DNA of 64,000 bases from Beroe forskalii (lineage: Eukaryota > Ctenophora > Nuda > Beroida > Beroidae). Location: assembly GCA_011033025.1 (NCBI GenBank), contig WFMF01000359.1, positions 1-64,000 on the forward strand, in the 5' to 3' direction. The position numbers and the translations under genes are program-made. Below the pieces are notes generated by a model. The model saw nothing but the letters and a program-made list of their open reading frames with translations. It had not been told where the DNA came from and searched no databases. Positions 1,629-40,908 of this stretch are shown here, in pieces (position 1 is the first letter of the stretch; each line of letters opens with the position of its first letter).

Positions 1629-2669
1629 ATGGAAACGTTAAAGATCGAGCAGGCACTTATAGAACTAAAGATTAAAGAAATGGTATTAACAGATAGGATG
1701 GAAAGACTAGAGAGGCAATTAGATGCTTTAGCTCTGGGGGAAGAGACAGAGAGGAAAGACAAGAAAGTTGAGATTTATGACTTGAGAGAAGAGCTTGATA
1801 AGTGCAGGGAGGACATTCAGAAAATTACGATTGAGGTAGCCGCTACTGAAGCAAGGGAGACGGCGTCAGAACCATGCAGGGAAAGTCATAGCCAGGTGAT
1901 GGGTAAGGAGAAAGAGGAATATAGGGTGAAATCCGGCCATAAACCCACAAAATATAAAACGGGCGATGATGTGGTGCTATTTTTAGACAGGTTTAAAAAC
2001 TTTGTAAAGATCAATAGAATCAATGAGGACCTGCTAACGATTCTACTTTCTCTCATTGAGGATGATTCTACCTTTAAGGATATAAGGGACATTGGAGTCC
2101 CTGAGACAAGCAGGTCCAATGTAGACGAATTGATAACAGCGATAAAAGACGGATTATATCCGGCCACAGAGTCTAGAATTCTCCGATCTAAGATGCTAAG
2201 AATGAGACAAAAATCGGGCGAGTCTATCAGTAAATTCACTGAACGATTGAAAGACGCCTCATTAATAGCTTTCAGTGATTCGGCTCTGAGAGAAGAAGCT
2301 TGTCTCGCAGCATTAATCGAGGGAGTCTTGGACGGTAAGATCAAAAGGAAGCTAATGGAAGAAGAGGTAAGCGAATTCACAAGCGCAATTAAAATGGCTA
2401 AAAAGATGGAAAAGATTGAGGAGGCAGTAGATGAAGAACCTCACTGGGATACGGCAGAAGTGGAAGTTCGGGGCCCAGTTTATAGTGTTGAGGAACAGCG
2501 TTCGGGTGGATGTGCTAAGTGCGGGAAGAAGGGGCACAGCTTAGAGAACTGCTGGAAAGACCTTCAATGTCAATTATGTGGGATCAAGGGCCACGTTGCT
2601 TCGGTTTGTCGAAAACGTCATAGCTTTCCACCACGTGGTAGGGGTTTTAGAGGTGGTCCACGTGTATAG
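1629..2669 (+). CDS. gag: Gag-like protein with two CCHC zinc knuckles (retroelement fossil)
   Basis: 346-codon frame. Residues about 1-80 are charged and heptad-like (probable coiled coil). Residues about 110-260 look like a retrotransposon capsid region, with repeated Leu/Ile and a basic segment typical of Gag. Two CCHC boxes (C-x2-C-x4-H-x4-C) lie at about residues 295-308 and 314-327, followed by an RG-rich tail. This layout (capsid, double knuckle, basic tail) is that of LTR-retroelement Gag, which packages element RNA. The frame is open throughout. Unusually, it lies downstream of the Pol-like end. Either two copies stand in tandem or the gene order is permuted. A domesticated Gag is possible but has no other support. 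Confidence 0.7.
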   Translation: METLKIEQALIELKIKEMVLTDRMERLERQLDALALGEETERKDKKVEIYDLREELDKCREDIQKITIEVAATEARETASEPCRESHSQVMGKEKEEYRVKSGHKPTKYKTGDDVVLFLDRFKNFVKINRINEDLLTILLSLIEDDSTFKDIRDIGVPETSRSNVDELITAIKDGLYPATESRILRSKMLRMRQKSGESISKFTERLKDASLIAFSDSALREEACLAALIEGVLDGKIKRKLMEEEVSEFTSAIKMAKKMEKIEEAVDEEPHWDTAEVEVRGPVYSVEEQRSGGCAKCGKKGHSLENCWKDLQCQLCGIKGHVASVCRKRHSFPPRGRGFRGGPRV

Positions 2670-32469: not shown

Positions 32470-35400
32470 GTAAATGTATGATGGGGTGCGCACTTCTTAC
32501 TTTCTTGTAGCGGGAACTTGGGAACTGAGATTGGTGTCATCATTACTGAACTTTAAGATGATTAAAAACTTGCCTAAAAGGTCATTTCATTCCGGCAATT
32601 TTTCAAAAATCCTAATTTTGTGCGTGTCCATAAGATCCTAATTCTGATTATTGATTATGGTCAACACATAATATACAAGGACTGCGCCCATATTTCCCAG
32701 TCGTGTTCTTGAATCATAACCCTCCCCAGTCCACAAGCTCTGTTTAAGTTTGATAAAGCGGCAAGAATTAGAATATCCCGAGAATGGCATGATTGCAGCC
32801 ATTATAAGAGTTAATTTCACGTGTCTATAGAATCCTGTATAATAAATTTTGACGCGAAAGATTTTGAAAATGATCCAAACTGACGTACAAGATGTACCCA
32901 TTTTTGGTTGCGCGCACTGCCGCAACCCAGTAGCTACTTTCAGATTTAACAGTATGGATGAAGGTAGTATGTTCTCTTAGCCCTCATAAAAAGCACGGTC
33001 TCTGCTAACCCCTTCAATGGTTTTCTTGTGAAAAAGGCGATTGGGAAGGGAAAATCATATTATTCTCTTTTTGTAACATAACCTGAGGTGTTATCACTTT
33101 TCTCCCTGTTATGCCCTTATTTCTTTATGAATTTCAAAGGTAACTCCTTTCTTTTATCTTTTAAAAATTGGCTCTCCCATCTGAGTTCTCACTTATATCC
33201 ACAGGAGTCGTGTACTGCGTGTTTGGGATATTTGGAAATGGCTTTCTTGCGTTTGTTTTCCTACGAATGAGGCGGAAGCAGTCAGTAACAGATATCATTT
33301 TCCTTCAGCTCGCAGTTCTGGGTGAGTTCTGATTTATTATATCGCCGTTCTAATTAACTTTATGGCTGTTCTAATTGATATTATCACCATGCTATAAGTC
33401 CATTAACAATGTTGAATTCTGAACTTTTAATACGTAGTGAGGACATTTTCCGTGCGTTTCTAATATATAATCAAACTCCAAAAAATCAAACAATGTTTTT
33501 AAGGCATTATTAATAAAATTTGCATTATTCTGAAAGTGCAAAAGAAGTAATTTATTCTGCTAAATTTTACGCAAATCATGAATAAGCAAATACATTCTCG
33601 TTCAGTGGCGTTAAATGAGCGTTGACAATTTAGTATTTTAATTTCTCTTTGTGCAGTGTTTATATATCAATGTACCGTATAATAAGAGCATCTTTGTCTT
33701 TGATTTTAAATAAAGATCTTGAGCGACCTTATTATATTTGGTCAATAAAATTTTGAAAGGCATTTAAGCACTGTCCTCCCACTGTCTTCATTAGTTGTTT
33801 CAAAGCTCACTCAAATGGGATATTTGCGTGGGGTAGTGTTGCAATATAAAACACATTGCAGAGGTGACAAGCGTCCCGAAAATTCCATCAGATTTTGACA
33901 ATTCGCACGCCTTTGGTTCATACGGTCTAGATCAGAGTTTTGATATTGGATTTTTTCACTAATTTTGCAATAGTTCGTGCAGGACCCCTCAGTTTCAATT
34001 TCTTGGGGGGTTTACGGGTGTACGGGTACTAGGAAGCTAGGAAGTCCCAACTTCCCGGATGAACTAAATAAGTATAGAAAATTGTGGGAAATGAAAATGA
34101 AGATAGGGCTTAACGCCTTTCCCTATTCAGATTTCACATCACCCGATCTTTAATAACACAGATTCTTTTCAGACTGTCTGAGCGGTTTCGCTGGGTTATT
34201 CGGTTCTATCTTCCTGGTTAACGGTAGGCGATGGTTTGACGAGGACAACATAGCAGCAGACCTCATTTGTTACCCAGCAGGTTAGAATTTAAGTAATTTA
34301 CTAATTGAGAAGTTTAGACTTCTTAGCACTGGAGAGTTACCAGGTGGGTCCCAGTGGAACACTCCGCTATGGGAGGGTGGTCAGTGGACATTCCACCAAA
34401 ACATATTGTTATTTGGGGATTGCAAGATTTCAACTACCACTGGCATTTAATTTCTTAAATATCCGAGTGTCCAAGGCAGTTACCGAGAAAAGGCTTAGCA
34501 TTTTGAAGTCCTCAGCATGCTATAATTTAGTTTATCGATACAATTTAACTGTTAGCGGCACATATCACTCAGGTGTGGCATGAATATCTCTCAGTGTACC
34601 ACTTCCAGGCTCGATATATCGGAGACACTTCCATGTCAGCCAATAAAGATTCCGTATGAGGTGTATTTTCCCAAAACCAAAAAGGATTTGGTTGTGATGG
34701 TCCGCGGCGGTTTTAAGGCGTTCTTTACTGTAAAACCCATGATATGAGAAAGAACGCGACGGTTAAAACTGCTGCAACGTCACTTATAAAATACACAGCA
34801 TTCACGTAACGTTAATGCATCAAAAGGTGCCGTTGCGGCAGTTTTAACCGTCGCGTTCTTTCTCATCATGGGTTTTACAGTAAAGAACGCCTTAAAACCG
34901 CCGCGGACCATCACAACCAAATCCTTTTTGGTTTTGGGAAAAAATATCACCCTTTTTCTGTGCCGAGATATTGAAATTTGGCGTCAAATCACGTGTAAAA
35001 ATTCGCGTTACCTAGCATTACTGATGACGTCACAATTACGTCATAAAATTAGATGAGCTATCTGAGACCCATTCATTTACACAGTTGGGACTAAGACCGA
35101 CAACATATCCAAAGATGAAGTTCTGGGGTGGTCCCGTTCTCTCTCCACAAGCTTCACAAGATTTGCCAGTTTTTGGAGTTTTTTTCGTGTCAAAGTGCTT
35201 CGAACAACCGCAAATAACTCAATGATGCCGTAGAGCCCGGAACTTTTTGAGCACATCTTTGGAAAGTGCATTAAATTTCCTTTCTGCGCTAACAGGAGCA
35301 TTTTTTTCTATCTCGAAAGCTTCATACCGAAAAATTGCGTTGAAAAACGCCTATTTTTGGGAAAATAGACATTTGAAATTCTTAGTTTTGTGACGTCATT

Positions 35401-38400
35401 ATGACGTCATTATCATGACGTAAATTAGTTTTTAAGGTCACTAACTGCAAGTTCTATCTTTCTACTTTCCAACGCTGGGTCGATAAGCTCTGTATCTTTT
35501 ATGGTTTCCGAGATATCGCCGTTTAAATAGGGTATACTTCTCGCACTAAAGCGTCATCTCTCGTATATGTATATACCTCTATATGTATGTATATATACCA
35601 AAAACCAAAAAGGATTTGGTTGTGATGGTCCGCGGCGGTGTTTAGGCGTTCTTTACTTCAAAACCCATGATATGGAAAAGAACGCGACGGTGAAAACTGC
35701 TGCAACGTCACTTCAAAATGTGTACAGCATTCACGAAACTGTAATGCTTCGAAAAAGTGCCGTTGCGGCAGTTTTAACCGTCGCGTTCTTTTCCATATCA
35801 TGGGTTTTGAAGTAAAGAACGCCTAAACACCGCCGCGGACCATCACAACCAAATCCTTTTTGGTTTTTGGAAAAAATATCACCCTTTTTCTGTGCTCAGA
35901 TATTGAAATTTGACGTCAAATCGCGCGTCAAAAATCGCGTTACCTAGCATTACTTATGACGTCACAATTACGTCATGAAATTAGATTAACTATCTGAGAC
36001 ATATTCATTAGCACAGTTGGGACTATGACCAACAACATATCCAAAGATGAAGTTCTGGGATGGTCCCGTTCTCTCAAAATCATCCTTACCGATTTTGCGA
36101 TTTTTTGCGACTTTTTCGTGTCAAAGTGTTTCAAACAAGTGAAAATATCTCAATGATCCCAAGACGCCCAGAATTTTTCGACCACTTCTTTGGAAAGTAC
36201 GTTGAATTTCCTTTCTGCGCAGCAGAAGCATTTTTTCCTATCTCGAAAGCTTCATACCGAAAAATTGCGTTGAAAAACGCCTATTTTTGGGTAATCGAAA
36301 TTTGAAATTCTTGGTTTTGTGACGTCATTATGTCGTCATTATCATGACGTAAAATAGTTTTCGAGGTCACTTTTAGCAAGTTCTATCTTTCTACTTTCCA
36401 ACGCTGGGTCGATGAGTTCTGTATCTTTTACTGTTCTCGAGATATACCTCTTTAAAGAGGGTATACTTTTCGCCTAAAAATGTTCTCTATTGGTATGTAT
36501 ATACATATGTATGTATATATATACCTATATACCTATCTATATATATGGTCGTAACCCGATTTAACAAGAACACCCTCGATTTTGGCAAAATTCAAGTTGT
36601 AATAACTCGGCCATTTTTCATCTAATCGATCTGAAATTTTGACAGTTGCACCCTTGGCCTCTGAACATGCGATGTTCAAATTTTAGTGCAATTTCGGCAA
36701 CGGGAACTTACTCAAATTTTAACGTCAAATATGGCCAATCCATGAAAACATATGGTTGGGGGCTGGCAAGCAAAGTTACATAAACTCACTCCCGATGCTC
36801 GGAGGCTCGTTTACTGTTAAGATAGCCGTCCAATGCTCGCCCTCGGACCCTTCGGGTCCTCGGGCTCGCGCTCGGGCCTTCGGCCCTCGCACTGTTAGGT
36901 TCGCCGTTCAATGCTCGCCCTCGGGCCCTTCGGGCCCTCGGGCTCGCGGCTCGGGCCTTCGGCCCTTGCACTGTTAGATCCGCCGTCCAATGCTCACCCT
37001 CGGACCCTTCGGGTCCTCGGGCTCGCGCTCGGGCCTTCGGCCCTCGCCCAGTAAGGTTCGCCATCCAAAGCTCGCCCTCGGGCCCTTCGGGCCCTCGGGC
37101 TCGCAAACCGCCGCGGGGGGCTTGCCAGCCCCCTGATGGTCGTAACCCAATTTAACAAGAACACCCTCGATTTTGGCAATATTCAAGTTGTAATATCTCG
37201 GCCATTTTTCATCCGATTGACCTGAAATTTTGACAGTTGCACCTTTGACCTCTAAAGATGTAATGTTCAAATTTTAGTGCGATTTCGGCAACGGGAACTT
37301 GCTCAAATTTCAACGTGAAATATGGCGAATCCATGAAAACATATAGTTGGGGGCTGGCAAGCAAAGTTACATAAACTCACTCCCGATGCTCGGACGCTCG
37401 TGTACTGTTAGGATAGCCGTCCAATGCTCGCCCTCGGACCCTTCGGGTCCTCGGGCTCGCGGCTCGGGCCTTCGGCCCTCGCACTGCTAGGACCGCCGTC
37501 CAATGCTCGCCCTCGGGCCCTTCGGGCCCTCGGGCTCGCAAACCGCCGCGGGGGGCTTGCCAGCCCCCTGATCAGCCAATCAAGAGTCACGTTATTTTTA
37601 TGCTAACTCCAGAGCTCTTCACGTGGATATTATAATACTTGCTCTTCCAATAACTGGAAATGCGCCTTTGTTTAAGCTGTCAAGACATATATCCACTCCT
37701 TACTTTGACTCATTGACCGTTCGTGGCACAACATGACTCTGACTCATGAACAGGCACAAAGTGTGTGCGAACTGCGAAGTAAGCGGAATGACCGTGTCAC
37801 ATATCTTCCTTTTCACAGCTCTCCCACCCTGTAAATACCTGCCGTATAAATCACTCAAACACTTTCGGGAGTTCTTTGACAGCCTGGAGTTTCCTCTTCA
37901 CTAGTCCCAAGAGACACCTAATGTCCTAATAGCTGTGATGCTGGCCGTTGTAAATATATTTGAGGAAAATCACATATTTACCCAGCTGCTGTATCAATAT
38001 TAAATGTAAAATATTCGAGTATTATGTGTACTACGATCGTCTTGCATTTCGGGATCCACATACTCACATACCATGTGTGCCAAAAAGTGTCAACAGGTTC
38101 TTATAAATAATCCTGGCATTTGGATGTACTCGCATTAAATGTCAGCATTGTTTCCATGCTCGAGATGAATATTTCCAAATATTTGTCCAACTTTCCGCGA
38201 GATCACTCTCCCGTTCGGAAAGTCTGCTTTAATTCATGGCATTCCGAGGGTATTGAACCATCTCCGAGAGTTAGCACTGAAAATTCCATATTGACGCATC
38301 GCTCACTGGAGATTTTTACATCTTTTGTACGGATTCAAATCGATTTTAAACATGGTGCAACTTCCTCTGTCGTCAGAAAATTGACAACACGTTACGTATA

Positions 38401-40908
38401 GCTTAACGTTTTGGAATTTAAACGTTACGAGTTTTTATACAACGGTTGAATCAACCAACCAAAGATTTTCTACCCCTCTATAACCCTCTCAGGAACGATG
38501 TGGAACATGGCGCCCCCTACCACGCCCCTTTTAACCCTCTATATTACCCTCTCAGGAACGATGTGGAACATGGCGCCCCTGACACGCCCATTTTAACCCT
38601 CTATAACCCTCGCAGGGATGATGTGGAACATGGCGTCCCTGACCACGCCCCTACTGCTGAGTAGCGCCAGTCTGGGCCGGTTCCTGGCCGTCTACGCGCC
38701 CTTTGCCTACGAGAAGTGCTTCAACCTGCGCGTGGTGAAGTGCATGATCGTGTACTGCTGGGCCCACGGGCTGCTCGGGGCTTCCATCAGCTTCGCAGGA
38801 CCTAACAAAGAAGGTATTGAGTGTGGGTGGACCGCAGTGAGAAATGAAACCATCTTTAAAGTGATGGAGTATGGAGGAGGTTGATTCAAAATTATTTTTT
38901 ATTATCCCCGTAGTACCTTAGTAGCATCTTTTGTGTGCGTGGCGCAACATGAATTAAGAATAATACGGCTGTACGCCGCGCAAACTTATGCTCTGCACAC
39001 AAAAGTCGCGCAAACTGCTGTTCAAACTGGCGAACTGTCACCGCTACGCTCTTTTCAGTCAAACCGTACCAGATGAATAATACGGCTGTACGCCGCGCAA
39101 ACTTATGCCGCGCACACAAAAGACGCACGAACGCTATATCTGCATTCCAAAATTACATATTTCAGTGTTGGAAGAATTTTGCGTTACTGTTTTCAGTTGA
39201 TTGCGATGAAGTTCGAAAACTGAGATTTATCAATTTTGCAAAATTCCATTATTCAGTGTTGGAAGAATTTTGTGTTTTCAGTTGTGCATATTGTTGATGC
39301 ATTGCCCATGACCCTTCATTTCAGTTAATTTACATCCTGCTCTTTACCATTCCTGTCATTGTATCCTGCTTCTCCATCATCTTCTGTAACCTGATGGTAG
39401 CACTGAAGATACTCGTCATGAAGGTAAGAACTCTGAAATACCTTGATAACCTCCAATATTTTAAGTATTTGACTGGGGGATATATATTTGCAATTATCAT
39501 GGTCACAAGATTTTAGCCTCAGAGAGTCTGGTCGGCCGAAATTGTAGTCGACACTTAGGACAATTTTTTGAAGCATCCCAGAACATCTGTGGCTTCAAAT
39601 TTAAGTGACATTTGATCATTAAAGTGCCAAAACTTTATTATGAAACCTGAATAATTCTTTATTTGACGCATCATTTATCATGTGAATTTATAGAAGTTAA
39701 ATAGTTTGACAATCACTTTGTCTCAAAAAATCCCACCCATAATTGGAGCAGACATATTGGTAAACTGGAGGCTAAGTGAAATATGGAAATATGGAAGTAA
39801 TGATATGATTTAAACCCAATAAATCCTGATTCGTATATCCGGTAAACTGTTTGTATTCCAGCACCAGTACCGCCGTAAGAAGCGCGTGATGAGCATGGCT
39901 CTGTGCTCTGTGGCTGCCAGTGATGAGAACCACCTCTACACCGCCCCCATGAGCTCCCTCTCAACCAATCACTACGTCGCTCCCTCCGTTCCCACCAATG
40001 GGAACGCAGATTCAAACCTCACCAATCACCACGTTTCTCTCTCCTCCAATCAGAAAGAAGCTCCCACCGCCCTGATCCCCTCGACAAATCACAATGCAGG
40101 GCCCAGGATTTCCTCCAATCAGATACGATCTGTCCACGTGTCCATCCCGAGGAAGAACAGCTACAGCAGCGCTACCCGGACAAACCCGTACATTTCGAGC
40201 CCTGACTCTGGCCTGCCCGGGGGAGACAGCTCGAACATGAGGAGCAATCTGAGCAGCACACTCACCTCCATTAACACTACTTTCAAGAGGTGGTGTAACA
40301 CCTCGCTACGGGGCGAGAACACAAGTACCAAGACCATTAGCAAGGACAATACCACCACCACTACCTTTGATGCGAGGGTGATCAGTGAGACCGCTAACAA
40401 TAATCACAGCAGCATTGAGGACCACCGGACGGGACCCGACACCCGGCCCTCCGTTATCTCGCTCACTATCCGCAAGATCAGCATGCTCTCCCGCCATAAC
40501 AAATCCACCAGCACAGCCACAGCGCCCATAGACAGGAACTGCAGCAGTTTGTCCACCTCGGCGCCCTATCGGAAGACAAAACGGAAGGATCGGCAGCGAC
40601 GGCGGCGCGAGAACCAAGCCATCCTGATGACCATCCTGCTGTCCATCAACTACCTGGTGTGCTACATCGAGATCATCCACTACTACGTGGCTGTGTCCAT
40701 CGGGGGCAACTGGGAGCAGTCTTACACGGTGGTGTTCAGCAACGTGACCTACGTCTACCTCTGGTACTACTTCTCCCTCTTCTGCGCCGCTGGCAGCAAC
40801 TGCATCCTCCACTTCTGCTTCAACCCCAACGTTAAGAAGAACCTCAAGATGATTGGCCGGGGGAGTGTCTCCAAGACTACGGTAGGGGAGTCCACTGGCT
40901 CGGCTTAG
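32421..40908 (+). CDS. Rhodopsin-class (class A-type) GPCR, six coding exons
   Basis: Exons 32421-32469, 33205-33321, 34173-34280, 38616-38860, 39325-39423 and 39862-40908 join in frame (phases 1,1,1,0,0) to 554 codons. TM1 has GNxF, and TM2 has LAVLD with the D codon split by intron 2. The Cys before TM3 (LICYPAG) can pair with the ECL2 Cys (IECGW). TM5 keeps its Pro. Loop 3 runs from about residue 207 to 455, is Ser/Thr/Asn-rich and has basic ends. TM6-TM7 and a short tail follow. Motifs are altered: GRF for D/ERY, a CYIE-like segment for CWxP, and NCILH for NPxxY. The N-terminus has only about ten residues before TM1. As a membrane receptor it should signal through G proteins or arrestin, and the ligand is unknown. 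The end of exon 4 is the least certain border (AAA|gtgatg chosen; GCA|gtgaga also in phase). Confidence 0.88.
33205..33321 (+). CDS. GPCR exon 2 (TM1, loop 1, TM2 start)
   Basis: Acceptor tccacag|GAG and donor CTGG|gtgagt. It encodes the GNGF motif of TM1, a basic first loop (RMRRKQS) and the first part of TM2 up to LAVL. The conserved TM2 aspartate codon is split by the following intron. Confidence 0.9.
34173..34280 (+). CDS. GPCR exon 3 (TM2 end, loop, Cys before TM3)
   Basis: Acceptor ttttcag|ACT and donor CAGCAG|gttaga. It completes the TM2 aspartate, then the end of TM2, an acidic extracellular loop 1 (FDEDN) and the cysteine that opens TM3 (LICYPA). Confidence 0.88.
34670..34938. mobile_element. 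Long palindrome, copy 1 (head of 928-bp tandem unit)
   Basis: Arms of about 108 bp start CCCAAAACCAAAAAGG and end with its complement, around a centre of about 50 bp. Between the arms of this copy I see one mismatch and a 2-base gap. Foldback-type element with no coding capacity. The unit continues with single-copy-like sequence to about 35597 and ends in a TATA/TATG-rich run. Confidence 0.9.
34939..35597. repeat. Non-palindromic body of tandem unit 1
   Basis: Starts AAAAAATATCACCCTTTTTC and carries several GACGTCA motifs. It is repeated with substitutions and small gaps at 35871-36546. Both bodies end with GGGTATACTT and then a TATA-rich simple repeat. This shows that the palindrome belongs to a larger duplicated unit of about 930 bp. 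Confidence 0.9.
35598..35870. mobile_element. Long palindrome, copy 2 (head of second tandem unit)
   Basis: Same family as copy 1 with arms of about 109 bp. I see two mismatches between its arms. It differs from copy 1 at several places (five instead of four A near the tip, GGTGTTTAGG for GGTTTTAAGG, ACTTCAAA for ACTGTAAA, ATGGAAAAG for ATGAGAAAG), and each difference appears complementarily in both arms. Confidence 0.9.
35871..36546. repeat. Non-palindromic body of tandem unit 2
   Basis: Diverged second copy of 34939-35597, running into a longer TATG/TATA simple repeat (about 36500-36546). The open frame at 36060-36305 lies in it and is not conserved in the first copy. Confidence 0.85.
36547..37135 (+). 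mobile_element. GC-rich repeat element, unit 1 (Helitron/HINE-like?)
   Basis: Begins GGTCGTAACCC and ends with a strong hairpin (GGGGGCT-TGCC-AGCCCCC) followed by TGAT. That terminus fits hairpin plus CTRR next to T of rolling-circle elements. An inverted match of the terminal stem (GGGGGCTGGCAAGC) lies at 36763-36776. The middle is a GC-rich minisatellite of about 76 bp in four copies (about 36820-37110). The long open frames on both strands here are repeat artefacts. Confidence 0.6.
37136..37571 (+). mobile_element. GC-rich repeat element, unit 2
   Basis: Directly joined head-to-tail to unit 1: CCCCCTGA of unit 1 is followed at once by TGGTCGTAACCC. It has the same order of parts, but the GC-rich minisatellite has only two copies, so it is shorter (about 436 bp). 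It ends CCAGCCCCCTGAT as in unit 1. Confidence 0.6.
38474..38640 (+). repeat. Three tandem copies of an intron-exon boundary
   Basis: Unit of 60-63 bp containing TTTTAACCCTCTATA, a pyrimidine-rich run, CTCAG or CGCAG, and GATGTGGAACATGGCG. Acceptor AGs fall at 38491-38492, 38554-38555 and 38614-38615. Only the third runs into the open GPCR exon 4. Splicing at either of the first two would reach an in-frame TAA at the end of the second copy. The forward frame 38446-38664 comes from this repeat. Confidence 0.85.
38616..38860 (+). CDS. GPCR exon 4 (TM3, loop 2, TM4, ECL2)
   Basis: Acceptor cgcag|GGATG. Encodes TM3 with SASLGRFLAV in the place of the D/ERY motif, then TM4 (CMIVYCWAHGLLGASISF) with its Trp, and ECL2 with the disulfide Cys. 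I end it at AAA|gtgatg (38860), which joins in phase 0 to TM5. An alternative phase-0 donor lies at 38835. Confidence 0.85.
38923..39134. mobile_element. GCGC-rich inverted-repeat MITE with duplicated right half (in intron 4)
   Basis: Left end CTTTTGTGTGCGTGGCGC. The right half, GAATAATACGGCTGTACGCC to GCACACAAAAG and CGC, occurs twice (38957-39022 and 39075-39134, offset 118 bp). It belongs to the family at 42025-42141. It occupies much of GPCR intron 4. Confidence 0.6.
39325..39423 (+). CDS. GPCR exon 5 (TM5)
   Basis: Acceptor catttcag|TTA and donor ATGAAG|gtaaga, 33 codons. Encodes TM5 with the conserved proline (FTIPVIV) and the start of intracellular loop 3. Confidence 0.92.
39862..40908 (+). 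CDS. GPCR exon 6 (loop 3, TM6, TM7, C-tail)
   Basis: Acceptor tattccag|CAC, 348 codons and stop TAG. The first about 250 residues are loop 3: basic at both ends (QYRRKKR; RKDRQRRRR), rich in Ser, Thr and Asn in between, with repeated SxNxH/SNQ-like segments. TM6 (ILMTILLSINYLVCYIEIIHYY) and TM7 (YVYLWYYFSLFCAAGSNCILHF) follow, then FNPNVKKNL as helix 8 and a tail of about 20 residues. G+C is clearly higher than in the flanks. Confidence 0.95.
   Translation, partial: HQYRRKKRVMSMALCSVAASDENHLYTAPMSSLSTNHYVAPSVPTNGNADSNLTNHHVSLSSNQKEAPTALIPSTNHNAGPRISSNQIRSVHVSIPRKNSYSSATRTNPYISSPDSGLPGGDSSNMRSNLSSTLTSINTTFKRWCNTSLRGENTSTKTISKDNTTTTTFDARVISETANNNHSSIEDHRTGPDTRPSVISLTIRKISMLSRHNKSTSTATAPIDRNCSSLSTSAPYRKTKRKDRQRRRRENQAILMTILLSINYLVCYIEIIHYYVAVSIGGNWEQSYTVVFSNVTYVYLWYYFSLFCAAGSNCILHFCFNPNVKKNLKMIGRGSVSKTTVGESTGSA

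Follow-up and report, generated by a model that had tools for sequence, protein, structure and literature searches.

Canonical Helitrons, as represented by Helraiser (PMC4778049) and by the published definition (PMC4067079), carry a TC at the 5′-end and a CTRR at the 3′-end, have a hairpin ~11 bases upstream of the 3′-end, and insert between A and T without duplicating the target site. For Helraiser, single-stranded and circular stages have been described (PMC4778049). Here we describe two palindromes of ~270 bp apiece in a 64,000-nucleotide stretch of the ctenophore Beroe forskalii (positions 1–64,000 of contig WFMF01000359.1, hereafter the window; assembly GCA_011033025.1, 216 Mb in 1134 contigs), and the family of Helitron-like elements to which they belong. 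We know of no 5′ palindrome of ~112 pairs, such as the family possesses, in Helraiser. The family shares the 5′ TC, the 3′ CTRR, the 3′ hairpin and the A–T insertion without duplication with canonical Helitrons, but its 3′ hairpin abuts the terminal CTGA and its 5′-end has a T-run of 1–7 bases. All results rest on the assembled sequence. The best explanation for them is probably that nested Helitron-like elements had their palindrome arms rewritten by polymerase template switching, mostly during transposition; the mechanism and its timing are what we infer from the variation set out below.

Closer structural parallels can be found among HINE and DINE-1 (PMC4067079) and FoHeli (PMC5148889) elements, some of which also have palindromes or hairpins near both ends, microsatellites and variable terminal T's. 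The subterminal palindromes of HINE are 12–15 bp long, in contrast to the ~270 bp palindrome of the present family, and DINE-1 prefers TT while FoHeli1/2 insert between TNAT and T, whereas the family inserts at A^T.

Homogenisation of arms and inversion of the spacer are both outcomes of template switching according to Abraham and Hazkani-Covo (PMC8604942). The short inverted repeats of yeast treated there resemble the family in their identical arms and inverted spacers, but they are short arms in single genes, as opposed to ~112 pairs in ~400 dispersed transposon copies. Paired two-arm changes at short time scales are also reported for template switching in RNA hairpins (PMC8794818) and for the mitochondrial palindromes of Nematomorpha (PMC6649704). 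Those systems concern functional RNA or coding genes, whereas the palindrome described here is the non-coding end of a transposon, with an adjoining body that serves as a rate control. The arm copying belongs to a known class of mutation, and its setting was not found among the literature matches listed (titles and abstract openings), which include no Helitron with a long 5′ palindrome and co-evolving arms. The terminal hairpins of parvoviruses exist in flip and flop forms, being invertible at the DNA end, and form dimers with one common hairpin. Unlike parvoviruses, the element showed no viral gene, and its integrated ends are of the Helitron type.

Two nested elements in the window

Both palindromes have ~112 stem pairs (a pair count taken from the family consensus), and their folding energies have z-scores of −31.5 (palindrome 1) and −30.3 (palindrome 2) against 200 shuffles each. 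Compared over 93 stem columns, the two arms of unit 1 show no substitution and a 2-base gap, those of unit 2 are one substitution apart, and arms taken across the two units are 6–7 substitutions apart, which are nearly always present in both arms. The original prediction, made from the window alone, was therefore right that the arms are near-identical within each palindrome while the units differ (0–1 against 6–7 substitutions), and the four inter-unit differences it quoted are all present and all mirrored in the opposite arm. It had palindrome 1 starting at 34670; the true start is four bases earlier, at 34666. The two bodies share ~87% identity, and the full-length units 86%. The features of the pair are as follows.

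34666–35597, + strand: element 1 (unit-1 subfamily), left part, consisting of the T-run and CCCAAAACC 5′-end, palindrome, body and (TA)n; an A precedes it at 34665
34666–34785, + strand: left arm of palindrome 1 (inverted-repeat search, arm alignment, folding)
34827–34942, + strand: right arm of palindrome 1, the reverse complement of the left arm (inverted-repeat search, arm alignment, folding)
34943–35560, + strand: body 1, non-palindromic (body alignment)
35598–37136, + strand: element 2 (unit-2 subfamily), nested in element 1 at A^T and without the 5′ T-run (junctions, 3′-module matches)
~35598–35713, + strand: left arm of palindrome 2 (inverted-repeat search, arm alignment, folding)
35755–35870, + strand: right arm of palindrome 2 (inverted-repeat search, arm alignment, folding)
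35875–36486, + strand: body 2, non-palindromic (body alignment)
36487–36545, + strand: (TA)n microsatellite of element 2 (sequence)
36546–37136, + strand: 3′ module of element 2, ending in GGGGGCTTGCCAGCCCCCTGA (best match 98.1%, unit-2-type locus L032)
37137–37571, + strand: 3′ module of element 1, its remainder past the nested insertion, ending in CTGA and then T (best match 96.3%, unit-1-type locus L011)

Along the window, palindrome 1 is followed by body 1 and a (TA)n tract; next come palindrome 2, body 2 and a second (TA)n tract, and finally two successive 3′ modules, each closed by CTGA and T. The best match of the first 3′ module is of the unit-2 type, at L032, while the eight best matches of the second are all of the unit-1 type, L011 being the closest. 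As the two modules are best matched by different subfamilies, element 2 sits inside element 1, and its insertion point is an A^T step within the (TA)n tract of element 1. At six of the 11 loci with neighbouring units, the window included (C424, C580, C636, C333, C680 and C858, the last with one further element adjoining), a CTGA/T junction leads either through (TA)n into the GGTCG module or straight into that module. Among the remaining five, C224, C349 and C425 carry one 3′ module after another but no matched end to the first, and the pattern is missing at C270 and C160. One locus speaks against the module assignment: L033, the other unit-2-type locus compared, matches both window modules poorly and, at 86.8%, ranks last of all 19 against the module of element 2.

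Tandem duplication of a 930-bp unit, as first proposed for the pair, is ruled out by the subfamily matches of the 3′ modules together with the nested junction at six of the 11 loci. Both arm variants were also found elsewhere as separate, solitary insertions: unit-1-type copies are solitary at many loci, and the exact unit-2 arm motif has no genomic occurrence beyond C227, C262 and the window, all three of which carry it in both arms. This is the pattern that the original prediction had named as pointing to two insertions of different subfamilies. The window pair is ordinary nesting, two insertions of two subfamilies upstream of an exon resembling a G-protein-coupled receptor (GPCR), and the differences between its palindromes are mostly subfamily differences that predate both insertions. 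The idea of a local duplicate whose arms were converted afterwards is not borne out, and arm-to-arm copying finds its backing as a family-wide process.

Element ends and family size

The units represent two subfamilies of a non-autonomous Helitron-like element of ~1.4–1.6 kb. Its plan is a T-run and CCCAAAACC at the 5′-end, a hairpin and CTGA at the 3′-end, and an A^T target. Comparison of flanks gave sharp ends, with unique DNA, A, T-run and CCCAAAACC on the left, and GGGGGCTTGCCAGCCCCCTGA, T and unique DNA on the right. A T-run of 1–7 followed by CCC or CC was parsed in 94 of 115 copies, corresponding to the Helitron 5′ TC, and the base before the run is A in 94/94; the search pattern required a T and barred only T ahead of the run. 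The 21 unparsed ends include window element 2 and C680_480980, both without the T. At the other end, 72 of 73 end-like matches have a T directly after CTGA (49 internal look-alikes were excluded from 122 motif matches), in keeping with Helitron CTRR termini and A–T insertion, and most of 37 rows compared have CTGA termini. No target-site duplication was seen by eye in the flank comparison, and the nested junctions read A^T, as opposed to the T–T site of Helentrons and HINEs. Apart from the position of the GC-rich 3′ hairpin, which directly abuts CTGA instead of lying ~11 bases upstream, and the variable T-run, the termini are of the Helitron type. At search lengths of 25 and 30 bases, no inverted repeat joining the two element ends was listed. 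The Helitron Rep domain (PF14214) has 20 matches in the genome, with apparently open Rep frames of up to 2871 amino acids. None of these matches was linked to the ends of the family as an autonomous partner, which weighs against the best explanation.

An arm motif matched the genome 392 times forward and 397 times in reverse, against none for a reversed control, which gives ~400 palindromes. Copies with 95–97% identity to unit 1 are present at many places, and copies with 96–97% identity to unit 2 at C227, C262, C913 and C807, whose bodies are 95–98% identical to body 2. To the right of (TA)n, a different 3′ module (GGATAGCCAAAAACAATTG...) is present in L034 and L020, and the usual module is inverted in L007, L015 and L024. 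A known structured RNA was ruled out, since the four Rfam matches at expectation values up to 0.5 all fall below the gathering score, three of them within the TA microsatellite.

Mirrored variation across the family

Family-wide, mutations in one arm tend either to spread to the other arm or to be lost. We compared 115 hairpins from 107 loci, out of the ~400 palindromes. L001–L060 are the top-scoring copies, the unit-1-like search having scored 40 of 678 first-look candidates and the unit-2-like search 40 of 641. L072–L107 were mostly picked for an exact 27-base match in both arms, which biases that stretch towards matched arms in the column matches, shuffle test, within/between distances and allele counts; the tree counts are free of those copies, whose bodies are too short. 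L071, a 243-base piece at the end of a contig, was left out, and four of 74 units were dropped from one arm comparison.

Each of stem columns 14–106 agrees between arms in 105–115 copies, though many columns vary among copies; in columns 4–13, a slippage zone, the arms agree in 95–114 copies. Mean arm difference is 1.7% within copies against 4.5% between them. In the alignment of 104 hairpins that remained when the 11 with flipped loops were set aside, both-sided changes affect 42 of 112 stem pairs and 181 cells, compared with 8.8 pairs (standard deviation 1.9) and 25.8 cells (standard deviation 4.1) in shuffles, none of 500 reaching the observed values. Sliding the partner columns by 1–3 positions reduces the 42 pairs to 10–23. 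The distinct mirrored alleles comprise 21 transitions and 27 transversions (14 and 12 among those in at least two copies), not significantly different from the 661 transitions and 614 transversions of the bodies (p 0.30). Five copies have mirrored gaps, of which three are distinct gaps and which include deletions, so that the homogenisation extends to the multi-base and indel changes by which template switching is recognised. Independent loci have mirrored alleles in common, 20 copies at a single pair. By thirds of the stem, the distinct mirrored alleles number 11 (outer), 24 (middle) and 13 (inner), a distribution that rules out a simple gradient of homogenisation. Homogenisation does not extend to two positions adjoining the loop, at which 108 and 109 of the 115 hairpins, respectively, have differing arms.

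Near unit 2, the arms form a graded series of motifs: TTTTAAGG at C913 and C225, TTTTTAGG at C807, and TGTTTAGG at C227, C262 and the window. The motifs are in both arms at these six places, and in one arm only at a seventh, C349. In the main subfamily (42 copies), seven singletons are mirrored, against ~0.05 expected from independent hits by our arithmetic. Four of the seven were searched genome-wide with exact 24-base patterns, which miss copies with another change nearby, and two of these occur exactly twice, as both arms of one copy. The other two detract from the case for copying within a single copy: the third is also present in a single arm at two other places, and the fourth occurs in both arms at three loci and in one arm at a fourth.

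It could be supposed that no process acts at all, each subfamily's palindrome having been created perfect and then inherited, as the nesting of two subfamilies in the window might suggest. The graded series in both arms at six places, among bodies 95–98% identical to body 2, the excess over shuffles and the one-copy mirrored alleles refute this as a complete account, and we regard it as extremely improbable. The earlier argument that independent drift is inadequate for the mirrored differences is supported by that excess, by the private two-arm alleles and by the tree counts given below, and arm-to-arm copying does account for those differences.

The short GC-rich palindrome of the 3′ module (window 36800–37100, and other loci) is mirrored too, reading CGGACCC..GGGTCC or CGGGCCC..GGGCCC in 143 of 144 cases (A/T pair 87, G/C 56, other 1).

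Changes on the body tree and loop inversions

A tree was built from the bodies of 78 copies (37 of the 115 hairpins, without a full body, were left out), and changes in 93 stem columns were placed on it. There are 24 mirrored and 13 one-armed changes on internal branches, with 0.39 co-changes expected by chance, and 35 mirrored and 143 one-armed changes on terminal branches, with 5.1 expected. When two odd copies of the 78 are removed, the counts become 19 and 15 on internal and 22 and 143 on terminal branches (Fisher p 4e-7). In this pruned tree, 10 of the 15 internal one-armed changes fall on three columns (50, 64 and 84) in which one-armed copies turn up singly and scattered, and we read most of these changes as placement effects. 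Two points weaken the tree evidence. Some one-armed variants are inherited, at columns 98 (C262 and window unit 2), 34 (C1110 and C330) and 59 (two C880 copies), and apparent whole-hairpin swaps between subfamilies (C270_14738, C370_577072) inflate the event counts. L048 (C270:14738) and L052 (C370:577072) seem to combine one subfamily's body with another's hairpin type, which suggests exchange of whole hairpins.

Among 115 hairpins, 11 carry the loop in inverted orientation, nine of them unambiguously, which matches the spacer inversion described for template switching. For five flipped loop types (four without the ambiguous C607_107552), the identical loop is present unflipped elsewhere, and inversion has therefore recurred. 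Of the two ambiguous flips, C607_107552 and C880_495937, which lessen the count, one has no adjoining body and one has body on both sides. Two pairs of bodies each share one hairpin head to head (C607:106599, C880:495937). The loci L022 (C607:106599, 107552) and L013 (C880:495937) comprise these inverted arrays and one hairpin with (TA)n on both flanks.

Selection on a folded nucleic acid, with one-armed mutants failing to transpose and second mutations restoring pairing as in structural RNA, would fit the tendency of inherited variants to be mirrored more often while private ones are mostly one-armed. It would also fit a main-subfamily stem poor in shared variants (two mirrored and one one-armed in 93 columns, against 106 of 569 body sites), and the loop-adjoining T–G as a permissible wobble pair. 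In RNA, two-step compensation passes mostly via G–U, in 78.5% of cases (PMC8794818), and no such G–U-dominated pattern is seen among the mirrored alleles of the family. Transversions exceed transitions among them, swaps such as G–C to U–A occur often although the pairs concerned have few wobble cells, deletions are mirrored in the five copies with mirrored gaps, and some mirrored alleles are restricted to one copy. Mirrored internal changes number 24 per 93 paired columns, about half the body rate of 297 per 570 sites, which we judge too high for double mutation, and loop inversions are not predicted. Selection of this kind is thus quite unlikely as the explanation; on folded RNA, as originally suggested, it is disfavoured as sole cause by the transversions, mirrored deletions and loop inversions, and may be a contributor.

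An artefact of assembly or polishing could potentially equalise arms and flip loops, hairpins being difficult to assemble and only assembled sequence having been analysed. Mirrored alleles are, however, common to independent loci (20 copies at one pair), one-armed mutations were freely recorded (the 143 terminal changes), and flips affect 11 of 115 hairpins and not half, all of which makes an artefact very improbable.

Probable template switching and its timing

Under the template-switching explanation, the palindrome would be single-stranded and folded during DNA synthesis. The nascent strand would copy the loop and inner stem and then fold back, and the second arm would be completed with the first arm as template; switching from strand to strand would also flip the loop. 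The setting would mostly be a single-stranded or circular transposition intermediate, rather than resident copies. The differences adjoining the loop would then persist because the inner stem serves as primer, and head-to-head bodies sharing a hairpin would be expected where fold-back synthesis runs past the arm. Two considerations tell against this scheme: the asymmetric differences beside the loop would also fit a structure that tolerates wobble and mismatch there, and errors of assembly or polishing are possible.

Alternatively, arms may be copied in place, through gene conversion or template switching that acts on resident copies independently of transposition (at cruciforms, at breaks or in ordinary replication). 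One-copy mirrored alleles and loop inversions can arise in resident copies, and the inverted duplications at C607 and C880 are centred on hairpins. The rates bear on both. In the 42 copies of the main subfamily, one-arm singletons amount to 0.0060 per site per copy against 0.0075 for body singletons, so that in-place copying would be slow, and arm mismatches per arm site stand to terminal branch length at a ratio of 1.2 on the 35 shortest branches. The loop-adjoining differences survive, though processing of hairpin tips should presumably erase them first. On longer branches the ratio drops to 0.37 (24 copies), 0.40 (10) and 0.13 (9), which speaks for in-place copying and against transposition as the occasion; the fall could be explained by evolution before insertion within those branches, or equally by slow in-place copying. 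Arm mismatch and terminal branch length are not correlated (Spearman 0.10, p 0.38). We consider in-place copying unlikely on this balance. We favour a view in which arms of resident copies decay roughly as fast as the bodies, whereas matched arms are kept in lineages that moved, so that copying goes with transposition; slow in-place copying would produce a similar fall.

Other features of the window

The downstream exon at 38663–38809 has a Pfam 7TM_GPCR_Srx match over the cut-off. Directly ahead of this GPCR-like exon, three near-repeats of ~60 bp (CTCTCAGGAACGATGTGGAACATGGCG...) occupy 38470–38650, and the motif ATACGGCTGTACGCCGCGCAAACTTATGC occurs twice at 38950–39130. An open frame at 1629–2666 (+ strand) has weak gag-like matches (PNMA and Retrotrans_gag, both below the cut-off).

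Implications

It is conceivable, if doubtful, that arm re-copying is a regular step of transposition, in which a displaced or circular strand snaps back at the 5′ palindrome, synthesis starts from the inner stem as primer, and each round renews the outer stem. If this is true, the genome of a living eukaryote would carry a heritable trace of a single-stranded intermediate, in the form of mirrored mutations and flipped loops, and no base-by-base selection would be needed to keep a stem of ~112 pairs perfect. The movement of Helitrons in vivo and the lifetime of perfect palindromes are, in our judgement, open questions. With ~400 dispersed copies of one palindrome, and a body alongside each as a clock, arm copying, loop inversion and decay become directly measurable. 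Mirrored differences between neighbouring hairpins need not imply local gene conversion, as the copying may have taken place in source lineages before insertion.

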